A stretch of 64,000 nucleotides of DNA from an uncultured Opitutaceae bacterium (GTDB lineage Bacteria > Verrucomicrobiota > Verrucomicrobiia > Opitutales > Opitutaceae): NCBI GenBank assembly GCA_951813085.1, contig OX638348.1, positions 2,179,627 through 2,243,626 of the forward strand, given 5' to 3'. The notes below the pieces were generated by a model, which saw nothing but the letters and a program-made list of their open reading frames with translations, searched no databases and was not told where the DNA came from. How positions within the stretch are numbered: position 1 is the stretch's first letter; each line of letters opens with the position of its first letter. The position numbers and the translations under genes were made by a program. This document shows, one piece after another, positions 11,483-16,382 of the stretch.

Positions 11483-12418
11483 CTAAACAAGCAGCGTATC
11501 CGGAATGCCGTCTTCGTCGTACCCTACGAACTGCTCGAGCGCTTCGCAGATTTTTTCGCCTTCGTCTTCCAAAAGGTAATGACCTGCATCCGCATAGTGA
11601 AGGACCGTCGCATTGGGCAGAAAGCGCTTCCAGCGATTCATGAAATGATCCGAAAAGCAAAAGTCCTTCCCTCCCCAAATCAGGGCAACAGGAACCTCTC
11701 GCAACGTTAGCAAACCATTCTCGATTTCGATGAGTCGGCTAAAGCTCCTATGTGTCACGTGCATTGGTATGTCTCTAACGAACTGGTAAACCGCCTTGCG
11801 ACTCGACCAGGACCGATAGGGGTAAAGGTACCCCTCTTTCACAGGCTTAGGGAGAGGTTTTTTCGATACCGCCATCTTCGCAGCCAGCCCAGCAAATCCG
11901 TTAAAGCCTTGGACAATCAATTTTCCCATCAACGGGGTCCGGCAAAAGGATATGCGGCGTGGGATCCGTGAATCAACGAACGCAGCTGTATTCATGATCG
12001 CGAGACGCCTAAGCTTGGGGAGTCGCTCCAAGGCCATGCCAATTCCGATCGCGCCACCCCAATCATGAACGATCAAATCGAATCGCTCGATATCCAAGCC
12101 ATCAATGAGCTCGCCCAGATCGCGAACTCTTTGGTCCAAGGTATATGCGTAGCCCCGTCTCGGGTTCTCAGAGAGGCCGCAGCCAATATGATCCGGAACG
12201 ATGCAGCGGAAATTCGCTTTCAAGGATTGGACCACATCGCGATAGAAGAAAGACCAGGTCGGGTTCCCATGGACCATAATCACCGCGTGCCCTTCGCCCT
12301 CGTCCAAATAGCTCATCTCAAAGCCGCAGCTTAGACGCTGCCTTTTGGGCGAATACGGATATAGCGCCGCTATGTCCGCGGGTAAGGAAGGGTTTTCGGC
12401 GCTCACGTCGTCTACCAT
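11483..12418 (-). CDS. OleB-like alpha/beta hydrolase (haloalkane dehalogenase superfamily)
   Basis: The 311-residue protein has the OleB/haloalkane-dehalogenase layout: MVHGNPTWSFFYRDVV (oxyanion/halide-binding Trp), VPDHIGCGLSENP, the nucleophile elbow IVHDWGGAIG with Asp119, and ADAGHYLLEDE with the catalytic His near 280. OleB proteins decarboxylate cis-beta-lactones to long-chain olefins in the OleABCD pathway. The ATG at 12418 overlaps the oleA stop codon as ATGGTAG, indicating translational coupling; the further upstream in-frame start is only a TTG. It is the last gene of a five-gene cluster. OleC and OleD, the enzymes that normally supply its substrate, are not adjacent, so a different lactone, hydrolase or dehalogenase role cannot be excluded. 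Confidence 0.8.
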   Translation of the reverse strand: MVDDVSAENPSLPADIAALYPYSPKRQRLSCGFEMSYLDEGEGHAVIMVHGNPTWSFFYRDVVQSLKANFRCIVPDHIGCGLSENPRRGYAYTLDQRVRDLGELIDGLDIERFDLIVHDWGGAIGIGMALERLPKLRRLAIMNTAAFVDSRIPRRISFCRTPLMGKLIVQGFNGFAGLAAKMAVSKKPLPKPVKEGYLYPYRSWSSRKAVYQFVRDIPMHVTHRSFSRLIEIENGLLTLREVPVALIWGGKDFCFSDHFMNRWKRFLPNATVLHYADAGHYLLEDEGEKICEALEQFVGYDEDGIPDTLLV

Positions 12419-13446
12419 TCCACACCCATCATTAGGCAATTTAGACCGCTCCCAATTCCGAGCATAGCCACCTTGTCCCCCTTCGTAAGGAATCCGTCTT
12501 CTTCGGCCTTGGCCAAAGTAATCGGCAAGGCGGCCGATCCTGTATTTCCGAATGTTTGGTACGAAGAATAGTCTTTTTCGTTTTCAAGCCCCAAGGTCTC
12601 GAACAAAAGCTTCTGGTGAGCGCTTCCCACCTGATGGCAGACAACTCGATCTGCCGTGTCGTCTGCCCAACCAAGCGATTCCTTAAAAGACGACCAGGTC
12701 TTTGCCGCAAGATTGACTCCAGCGTGAAGCATCTCCTCCGAATCCGTCTGCATCTCGTAGCCGAGCCCTTCCGCGTTGGAATCCCCTTGGCACAAGTCGT
12801 TGCTGGAAGTATCCGCTATGCAAGCGCCACCCAATAGTCGATGGCCCTGCGGCGAGAGCGACTCGTGACAAACCACCGCTGCCACCGCGCCCGCTCCAAT
12901 CGTCAGGTTGGCGAAATACGGCTTGATCGTCTTTCGCGTCAAATCCTTCTCAAGCAATAGCTGGATGGTTCTCTCTAGCAGCGGTTTTCCATTTTCGCCC
13001 GAGACCACGATTCCGCTCTTAATCTGCCCAGAATCGATCATCGCCGACAAGAGCGTGAGCGAATTCAAGAACCCAAGGCAGGCATTGGATACATCCATTA
13101 CTTGGACATTCGGGCTCAGCCCCATTATGCGATGAGCGAACGAAGCGGACGCAGGCTCCAGCATGTCACGACTCACTGAACAATGGATACACGCTTCAAT
13201 CTGATCAGGAGCGATCCCACTCTTCGCCAAGGCCTTCAGGCCCGCTTCCGCGCTCGCATCCGAGGGACGGATCGAATGATCCCAAAAGCGGCGTTCCCGA
13301 ATTCCCGTCATCAATTCCAAGCGACCCTCCGGCAAGCGCAAGCGCTCATATAGGGGCCGTAGCTTTTCCTCTATGTCCGCGCTAGTCCACACTTCGGGTG
13401 GAGCTACATAGGCTAAAGAATCTATAACTGTAGAATGAAAATGCAC
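12412..13446 (-). CDS. OleA-like thiolase, head-to-head acyl condensing enzyme (KAS III superfamily)
   Basis: At 344 residues it matches OleA throughout: VAPPEVWTSADIEEKLRPLYERL, LPEGRLELMTGIRERRFWD, SNACLGF, TRKTIKPYFANLTIGAGA and the GIGSGLNCLMMGVEW end are all family hallmarks. Glu97, Cys123, His271 and Asn301 line up, with consistent offsets, with the known OleA Glu/Cys/His/Asn active-site set. OleA performs a non-decarboxylative Claisen condensation of two fatty acyl-CoAs to a 2-alkyl-3-ketoacid, the first step of long-chain olefin or ketone formation. The start is a GTG at 13446 with no clear Shine-Dalgarno. It sits between a FabI-like gene (95-bp gap) and overlapping oleB. Confidence 0.9.
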   Translation of the reverse strand: MHFHSTVIDSLAYVAPPEVWTSADIEEKLRPLYERLRLPEGRLELMTGIRERRFWDHSIRPSDASAEAGLKALAKSGIAPDQIEACIHCSVSRDMLEPASASFAHRIMGLSPNVQVMDVSNACLGFLNSLTLLSAMIDSGQIKSGIVVSGENGKPLLERTIQLLLEKDLTRKTIKPYFANLTIGAGAVAAVVCHESLSPQGHRLLGGACIADTSSNDLCQGDSNAEGLGYEMQTDSEEMLHAGVNLAAKTWSSFKESLGWADDTADRVVCHQVGSAHQKLLFETLGLENEKDYSSYQTFGNTGSAALPITLAKAEEDGFLTKGDKVAMLGIGSGLNCLMMGVEW

Positions 13447-13541
13447 AGTGTTAAATTAAGAATTAGGAATGCAAATTGAGGAGCCGGAAACTCTCAGCTA
13501 CTATTCGCCAAGCATAGGCCAATTTCACCCTATTTCCTTCT

Positions 13542-14829: not shown

Positions 14830-14858
14830 AAATCGTTCTATTCGTATCCGTTTTTTCG

Positions 14859-16382
14859 CTATGCAACATGAGCGGCTTGGGAATTATTCCCGCGATTCGA
14901 TGCAACCAACTGCTTATCGACCTTATTGGCGACGATTACGCCATAGTTCATAGTTCCAAGCCATCCTGACATGATAATCCCAACGGACCCGGCGTGGTAC
15001 AGTCCTTCAATTTGGTCGGGGAGCTCCATGGAACACTTCAAGCCCTCGAACTTCGTCCCGAATGAAGTGCCTCCCGGATGGCGCGTGTAGTAGTGAATGG
15101 TACGGGGTGTCGCTGCATCCAGGAAGTCGATCTTAGAACGTACATCCGGAATATATTTCTCCAGGGCTTGGAGCGATTCTTCGATCAATCTCTTCTTGTG
15201 CGACTCGTATTCATCTTCGGACAACTGGCTCCAGTCTCCGTATTTGCCATTTAACGACGCAACTACTGTATAGCGACCAGAGCCCGGACGCGTCTCAGGA
15301 TAGTAGACAGAAAACGTTCGGCTCGTTGTTCGAAAATCCACCAGCTCGTCGCTTGAAAAATGCTCTGCATCAGAGGTAAAGACCAGATCTCCAATATTGG
15401 GAATGCTCTCACCTGACTTGATCCCCATATACACTTGGCAAGAGCTCGAATTGACGCGAACCGCATCGAGTTCCTTTATGTAGGAATCCGTGAAGCGATC
15501 CGATCCCACAAGACGTTTCACCGTGCTCACAATATTTGCGTTGGAAACAATGGCCTTACAGCAAATTGTACGCGACTCGTTGAATTCACCGTTGCGAGAA
15601 CGTCCGGCAACCACGACTCCTTTCACGGCGTCTTCTCCATTGATCGTTTCCGTGAGGACCTTCTTGACTAAGACGTTTTTCCGGGTCTCGACTCCATTTC
15701 GCTCCATCTCTTCCACCATCTTTCCAATCAAGACATCCGTTCCCCCACGAAACGTAAACACCCCCTTGCTCATGAAATTCGAGAACACGATTCCAAAGGT
15801 AATCGCCGGATCTTCAGACGTGGAACCATTTGCGTAGGCGATCGGCTCCAGCAGCAATCTGTGGATATCGTCGCGACCCGGAAAGAACTCTTCGAATAGC
15901 TCTCCAGTAGTTCGCGAATCGTCATCGTAGAAATTCATCTGGCGCAGATGGGCGTAAAACGCCTCCACCTGCTCGCGCGGAGCGCCGAACTTCTCGACTA
16001 GAATGCTCGTGAAGTCTTTCCGATCGAACGTCGTCCATACGTCAAATTGAGGATTGATGAATCGCACGTCCTTGAGCTGGTGGATCGAATCCGCGATTTC
16101 CTGGGTCCAGTACTTACGGCAGGATTTGACCATCCCATAGGGAAATCCGTGCAAGGAAATATCGAAGATGTGACGGCCCGGCCGCTTGAACCAAGTCGCC
16201 AGCCCTCCATATTGGTAATGGTGCTCCAGCAGCAGGACCGAATGACCGCACTTCGCTAGCGTATTGGCGCTCGTCAAGCCACCGAGACCGCTGCCGATAA
16301 CCACGACATCGTACGAGTCCTTAACACCTTCTAGCCAGTCTTTGCCCACAAGGGGCGCAGTGAAGGAAGCTTTGCTACACAT
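14859..16382 (-). CDS. CrtI/CrtISO/retinol-saturase-type FAD oxidoreductase
   Basis: From the ATG at 16382 the protein is 507 residues. It has an N-terminal FAD-binding beta-alpha-beta motif (VVVIGSGLGGLTSANTLA, residues about 26-43) followed by GHSVLLLEHHYQYGGLATWF. FRGGTDVLIGKMVEEMERNGVETR lies mid-protein, and the C-terminal signature GLYHAGSVGIIMSGWLGTMNYGV corresponds to the second FAD-contacting motif of phytoene-desaturase-like enzymes. Members dehydrogenate, isomerise or saturate conjugated polyenes. A 54-codon in-frame extension to 16544 is not conserved-looking. It is the first gene of a cluster with fabZ-, fabI-, oleA- and oleB-like genes, which points to a fatty-acyl or hydrocarbon chain as substrate rather than a carotenoid, since no crtB or crtE is present. 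Confidence 0.8.
   Translation of the reverse strand: MCSKASFTAPLVGKDWLEGVKDSYDVVVIGSGLGGLTSANTLAKCGHSVLLLEHHYQYGGLATWFKRPGRHIFDISLHGFPYGMVKSCRKYWTQEIADSIHQLKDVRFINPQFDVWTTFDRKDFTSILVEKFGAPREQVEAFYAHLRQMNFYDDDSRTTGELFEEFFPGRDDIHRLLLEPIAYANGSTSEDPAITFGIVFSNFMSKGVFTFRGGTDVLIGKMVEEMERNGVETRKNVLVKKVLTETINGEDAVKGVVVAGRSRNGEFNESRTICCKAIVSNANIVSTVKRLVGSDRFTDSYIKELDAVRVNSSSCQVYMGIKSGESIPNIGDLVFTSDAEHFSSDELVDFRTTSRTFSVYYPETRPGSGRYTVVASLNGKYGDWSQLSEDEYESHKKRLIEESLQALEKYIPDVRSKIDFLDAATPRTIHYYTRHPGGTSFGTKFEGLKCSMELPDQIEGLYHAGSVGIIMSGWLGTMNYGVIVANKVDKQLVASNRGNNSQAAHVA

Follow-up and report, generated by a model that had tools for sequence, protein, structure and literature searches.

Why would two genes of the Ole pathway share an operon with genes of the fatty-acid and carotenoid kinds? 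The question is raised by five minus-strand genes in a 64-kb window (the whole stretch of DNA analyzed, G000:C1:2179627-2243626) of the single-contig 4.85-Mb genome of an uncultured Opitutaceae bacterium (G000). A sequence-only reading of this stretch had described oleA and oleB in one run with FabZ-, FabI- and phytoene-desaturase-like genes, without adjacent oleC and oleD, and had proposed that acyl-chain remodeling followed by head-to-head condensation could give unusual hydrocarbons or ketones. Our answer, in part an argument by analogy and one we hold to be an even call, is that the five genes form a conserved block of the Ole pathway which, with partners scattered over the genome, would make and join tailored, probably polyunsaturated, acyl chains. 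Across much of the phylum there is an OleA-bound acyl-tailoring system, and this cluster makes up one of its several loci. In order of transcription (CrtI2-FabZ2-FabI2-OleA-OleB), the genes are as follows.

CrtI2, 14859..16382, minus strand: phytoene-desaturase-like oxidoreductase dependent on flavin adenine dinucleotide, amine oxidase superfamily, 507 aa
FabZ2, 14380..14829, minus strand: FabZ-like 3-hydroxyacyl-ACP (acyl carrier protein) dehydratase, 149 aa
FabI2, 13542..14372, minus strand: FabI-like enoyl-ACP reductase of the short-chain dehydrogenase/reductase kind, about 276 aa from the ATG at 14372
OleA, 12412..13446, minus strand: head-to-head acyl-CoA condensing thiolase, 344 aa, GTG start
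OleB, 11483..12418, minus strand: alpha/beta-hydrolase (haloalkane-dehalogenase-like) beta-lactone decarboxylase, 311 aa

The open reading frames (ORFs) of the window place this block exactly where the sequence-only reading had put it, and the OleA and OleB residues it had listed are all present. OleA contains E97, C123, H271 and N301 and scores 449.5 bits against NF006720 (cut-off 285); by this Cys/His/Asn/Glu set and its family score, it belongs to the Ole pathway. Its closest solved chains are 3row and relatives, which we take to be Xanthomonas OleA. The nucleophilic Asp of OleB is residue 119 counted from the ATG at 12418, or 126 from the mechanical start. These four OleA residues and the OleB Asp are presumed to be catalytic. 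The oleA and oleB frames overlap by 7 bases, and the other junctions have gaps of 29 (CrtI2-FabZ2), 7 (FabZ2-FabI2) and 95 bases (FabI2-OleA). The mechanical ORF call for FabI2 begins at TTG 14402, upstream of the ATG at 14372.

The earlier reading had also suggested a look at gene order in relatives. CrtI2 was searched in 57 genomes of the order, this one included. Orthologues were found in 52 genomes, at 55-87% identity to the protein studied here; G021 (67% complete) gave a weak match only, and four gave no match. Gene order was read by tblastn in 12-20 kb fetched around each of 20 CrtI2 orthologues. All five genes occur in the same order and on the same strand in 15 of these loci, with CrtI2 alone in four and CrtI2-FabZ2 in one. 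Because 15 of 20 relatives' loci keep order and strand, the arrangement is far beyond chance. OleA is present in 50 of the 52 CrtI2 genomes, lying within 2.2 kb of CrtI2 in 35, on the same contig at 15 kb to 1.07 Mb in five, and on other contigs in ten. Of the two genomes without it, G053 has a contig that stops inside FabI2, just before the expected OleA, and G050 has a completeness of 64%. The other four genes usually remain together even after CrtI2 has relocated: FabZ2-FabI2-OleA-OleB lie on one strand in 25 of the 28 OleA loci within the order (OleA alone, 2; FabZ2 lacking, 1). Moreover, the four genomes that give no CrtI2 match (G040, G042, G043 and G051), each from a different family of the order, coincide with the four that lack OleC, and OleA is missing from them as well.

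It was correct that oleC and oleD do not adjoin oleA-oleB, but the hint that they are missing from the route is not supported. Finding them elsewhere, in company with ordinary olefins, had been named as an outcome that would count against the original proposal, and homologues are indeed encoded elsewhere. Of 11 places with an AMP-binding match in the genome one fits OleC, and of 12 with a 3-beta-HSD match one fits an OleD-like protein. OleC, at G000:C1:2637983-2639638, scores 634.8 bits against NF006754 (cut-off 478); the next in rank are the two models for olefin beta-lactone synthetase, both below their own cut-offs. For the OleD-like protein, at G000:C1:2651818-2652954, OleD models rank first, with 379.2 (NF042422) and 377.8 bits, below the cut-off of 580. 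The two genes lie 12 kb apart and ∼445-460 kb from OleA. OleC is present in 53 of the 57 genomes searched, and relatives of the OleD-like protein adjoin it in 12 of 30 OleC loci (1.5-kb flanks). The possibility that oleC and oleD are missing is rejected, OleC and an OleD-like protein having been found, and the Ole pathway looks complete in gene content, though scattered over loci. The ORF that follows oleC (L017:8750-9949; G000:C1:2636749-2637948), without a family match in the scan, is presumably FIST-like; the same ORF follows oleC in several members of the genus.

The five genes are real, but the set is larger than had been seen. Several relatives have, ahead of the operon, genes for CrtI3, a second and distant CrtI-like protein (∼24% identical to CrtI2), for ACPx, an acyl carrier protein, and for KASx, a FabF-type ketosynthase. 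Of the first 20 loci, 6 have KASx and CrtI3 in the fetched stretch together with the operon. In the genome studied here, the trio lies at C1:3171510-3174493, ∼0.98 Mb from the operon in the window.

CrtI3, L151:7511-8911: second CrtI-like protein, module of this genome
ACPx, L151:8987-9241: acyl carrier protein, module of this genome
KASx, L151:9259-10494: FabF-type ketosynthase, module of this genome

KASx retains C162, H300, K331 and H336, and its C-H-H site is intact. ACPx lies between KASx and CrtI3 on the same strand in all 11 loci where both were seen. Outside the class, in family f53, the trio adjoins OleA in divergent orientation (L195-L197; 3 of 17 loci, three genomes). By eye, a galE-like epimerase ORF is divergent from KASx (L151:10580-11569; also in several relatives, at L060, L067 and L069), and two similar transposase-like copies, IS3-like in appearance (L151:4417-4683 and 12735-13847), flank the KASx-ACPx-CrtI3 region at some distance.

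Co-occurrence across the phylum was assessed in one set of 387 evenly drawn genomes, used for CrtI2 (found in 107), OleA (110) and CrtI3 (112) alike. CrtI2 and OleA are both present in 101 genomes and both absent from 271, with CrtI2 only in 6 and OleA only in 9. For CrtI3 and OleA, the corresponding counts are 104, 269, 8 and 6. All three proteins occur together in 99 genomes, and 106 of the 110 OleA genomes carry one or both CrtI-like proteins. Together with the conserved operon, this co-occurrence supports the sequence-only reading in grouping the FabZ-, FabI- and CrtI-like genes with oleA-oleB. OleA without either CrtI-like protein was seen in four genomes: G393 and three of family f46 (G100, G173 and G361), in which OleA has only 37-39% identity. 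In both G100 (L329:9564-19886) and G361 (L331:2-10072), OleA immediately follows a large gene, of 2322 and 2321 aa, respectively, and these two genes have near-identical starts. The best model for the large G100 protein is PfaA, at 594 bits, below the cut-off of 1010; the protein also matches a FabA-type dehydratase model above its cut-off (NF003509, 233 versus 124) and has a PfaB-type match below cut-off, and the preceding gene matches the end of PfaA. Outside the class, no CrtI2 neighbor was common to at least 6 of 20 loci save CrtI2 itself and antisense ORFs. In family f51 (G135), also outside the class, the nearest named proteins are from Lentisphaeria and Victivallales. One CrtI2 labeled Desulfobacteraceae (P0240) sits on a 4-kb contig and is nested among Lentisphaeria-named hits; it was set aside as probably mis-binned.

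How does this system compare with known ones? As in the OleABCD pathway of Xanthomonas, Shewanella and Micrococcus, there is an OleA with its catalytic residues, an OleB, an OleC and an OleD-like protein. It differs in that the genes are split over loci, that oleA-oleB share an operon with CrtI-, FabZ- and FabI-like genes, and that CrtI-like partners are near-constant in this phylum. The ole genes themselves have been reported in Opitutae and other bacteria of the Planctomycetes-Verrucomicrobia-Chlamydiae group (PMC5673642, PMC7158056 and PMC10176705). The Ole part is therefore known; a search of open-licence papers gave no account of the coupling to FabZ, FabI, KAS, ACP and two CrtI-like proteins. 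None of those papers joins phytoene desaturase with OleA and olefin, phytoene dehydrogenase with olefin and Opitut- names, or Opitut- names with polyunsaturated hydrocarbon. In Shewanella, pfa products are required for the Ole hydrocarbon, hentriacontanonaene (C31:9) (PMC3098273 and PMC6463001). There too a secondary lipid line feeds OleA, and f46, where OleA comes after a Pfa-like synthase in two of the three genomes, resembles that case; here, in contrast, the line consists of discrete type II proteins and CrtI-like flavoenzymes.

A further likeness is to Desulfotalea and the anammox bacteria. Desulfotalea is described as producing C31:8 and C31:9 hydrocarbons and as having type II fatty acid synthase (FASII) clusters with phytoene-desaturase-like genes (PMC2649909). 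The FASII clusters of both groups bring together FabF, ACP, FabZ and CrtI-like families (PMC2649909 and PMC4790861). The CrtI-like proteins of Kuenenia gave no lycopene (PMC4790861). For the anammox comparison, the FabZ stretch of a solved chain served as query, and 80 loci were fetched, 19 of them from anammox-type Planctomycetota. Those uncut by a contig end have a FabZ-KAS-KAS-CrtI run. Their CrtI, KAS and FabZ are only 23-38% identical to the proteins here (CrtI, ∼25% to CrtI2 and 23% to CrtI3), and at E≤1e-4 neither OleA nor FabI2 had a match within the 19 loci. Unlike the set here, those FASII clusters have a tandem KAS pair and a radical-SAM gene (PMC4790861). CrtI2 scores a median of 111 bits against anammox CrtI and 74 bits against CrtI3; a close tie to the anammox proteins was considered and dropped, and no special kinship is claimed, because carotenoid models give CrtI2 similar scores. 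The anammox parts are of the same kind as those here but not close relatives, and no place among the ladderane clusters is claimed for the operon.

With these systems as analogies, the following route can be proposed. KASx would elongate chains on its dedicated carrier, ACPx, and a housekeeping ketoreductase would serve the KASx/ACPx/FabZ2/FabI2 line. FabZ2 would dehydrate, and FabI2 would reduce only some of the double bonds, others being kept. As carotenoid-desaturase-type flavoenzymes, CrtI2 and CrtI3 may add or isomerize double bonds on the acyl chain. OleA would receive the finished chains and condense a pair; after reduction by OleD, OleC would produce the beta-lactone, which OleB would decarboxylate to a long internal olefin with several double bonds. 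Such a discrete line would replace the multidomain Pfa synthase that feeds OleA in Shewanella and, judging by gene neighborhood, in f46. Acyl remodeling before head-to-head condensation, the core of the original proposal, is in this form kept as the best reading. We argue for polyunsaturation because two near-constant enzymes have a polyene-handling fold, because the OleA family that lacks both (f46) has, in two of its three genomes, a Pfa-like synthase adjoining OleA, and because no PfaA (TIGR02813) over the cut-off, a strict test, was found in any of the 57 genomes of the order. Weaker, ketosynthase-type matches to the PfaA model occur in all 57. The best one in the genome studied here, 186 bits at G000:C1:3273875-3275884, is broken by four in-frame stops and is an apparent remnant of a polyketide synthase. 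More tentatively, and with some doubt, Opitutales and other members of the phylum may possess a Pfa-free type II polyunsaturated line in which two flavoenzymes of carotenoid-desaturase fold act on ACP-bound chains and Ole joining yields polyene hydrocarbons; this would be an Ole-linked counterpart, in cultivable bacteria, of the unsolved ladderane line of anammox bacteria.

Several points weigh against the best reading. Its polyunsaturated product is an argument by analogy, and the family of FabI2 makes it a reductase, expected to take away double bonds and not to keep them. Outside the class, FabZ2 and FabI2 were not found beside CrtI2 (20 loci) or OleA (17 loci). One f46 genome, G173, lacks both CrtI-like proteins and has no Pfa-like gene within 20 kb of OleA, and G393 (79% complete) has OleA without CrtI2 or CrtI3. 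Conversely, nine genomes with CrtI2 or CrtI3 have no OleA match, including G156 (99% complete), although its CrtI2 sits 3.5 kb upstream of OleC-OleD. As for PfaA, the cut-off is a strict one, since the Pfa-like f46 protein itself falls below it, and type I ketosynthase proteins of relatives reach 365 bits against the model. Fisher's P for the CrtI/OleA co-occurrence (<1e-70) is overstated because the genomes are related; joint absences and unlinked co-occurrence weigh more.

What else could the set do? Dedicated elongation might be all: KASx, ACPx, FabZ2 and FabI2 would make longer saturated chains, CrtI2 and CrtI3 would make one finishing change (e.g. on the olefin), and the product would be an ordinary long mono- or di-olefin. 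The two Fab-like proteins are as compatible with a saturating line. FabZ2, which falls in Pfam FabA, keeps the GHYP...PGVxxxE motif, with H46 and E60 (presumably catalytic) constant in 17 of 17 aligned sequences, this one included. FabI2, in Pfam adh_short_C2, keeps the YxxxxxxK pair Tyr164 and Lys171 (286-aa ORF numbering) in 18 of 18, which with FabZ2 makes a dehydrate-reduce pair beside the intact KASx site. FabI2 scores at best 186.6 bits, below the curated FabI equivalog cut-off of 362, and at the second FabI tyrosine position, located by alignment to solved chains, all 18 have Ile154; we take that Tyr to belong to the FabI active site, and InhA to have Phe there. A predicted FabI2 structure, with a mean local-confidence score (pLDDT) of 75.6, was left out of these conclusions. 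Elongation by itself leaves unexplained the near-constancy of the CrtI-like proteins in OleA genomes (CrtI3 in 104 and CrtI2 in 101 of 110), as well as the Pfa-like synthase adjoining OleA in f46, and we judge it unlikely, if worth keeping in mind. Could FabZ2 and FabI2 instead be the housekeeping dehydratase and enoyl reductase, with oleA a mere passenger in their operon? This was considered since, in all 10 genomes tested, FabI2 is the sole FabI-like match (E≤1e-12). However, FabV (PF12241), an unrelated enoyl reductase, is present in 53 of the 57 genomes, among them the genome studied here and the four without OleA, OleC and CrtI2. Because FabV supplies another enoyl reductase, FabI2 is probably dedicated; moreover, FabZ2-FabI2 keep with OleA-OleB even where CrtI2 has left. 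A housekeeping role is thus very unlikely.

The CrtI-like proteins might, alternatively, serve a carotenoid or other isoprenoid pathway, their association with OleA being historical or regulatory. CrtI2 shares its fold with carotenoid desaturases, its nearest fold match, and among family models it resembles those of carotenoid enzymes. Its closest named proteins come from Opitutales-type bacteria (e.g. Pelagicoccus, Opitutus and strain DG1235), and its homologues, where named, are called phytoene dehydrogenase or retinol reductase. Yet it scores far under every carotenoid cut-off (CrtD, 101.1 versus 549.7 bits; CrtISO, 89.2 versus 586.9; CrtI, 72.6 versus 238.1), as does CrtI3 (63.7 versus 586.9). 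The joint absence of CrtI2, OleA and OleC in four families and the linkage to KAS and ACP point to a role on acyl chains, and an isoprenoid role seems improbable. An unusual ketone, the other product originally proposed, or a ladderane-like cyclized one would surprise us. The anammox FabZ-KAS-KAS-CrtI run draws on the same broad families, but its CrtI is distant. Since the genome encodes OleB, OleC and an OleD-like protein, and OleC is in most genomes of the order, an olefin is to be expected and not a ketone shunt.

Around the operon, a divergent cyclophilin gene lies upstream and a convergent 4-alpha-glucanotransferase gene downstream. Promoter and terminator scans gave no more signals than in shuffled sequences. 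Farther past the upstream side, at 20700-24190 of the window, ORFs that appear sulfatase-like and pyrroloquinoline quinone (PQQ)-repeat-like were noted by eye.

If the acyl-tailoring reading is true, a conserved protein now named phytoene dehydrogenase or retinol reductase would gain a function. The role of CrtI-like proteins in fatty-acid clusters, a central question of ladderane biosynthesis, would become testable in cultured bacteria, and so would a Pfa-free origin of polyunsaturated hydrocarbons such as those of Desulfotalea (PMC2649909).

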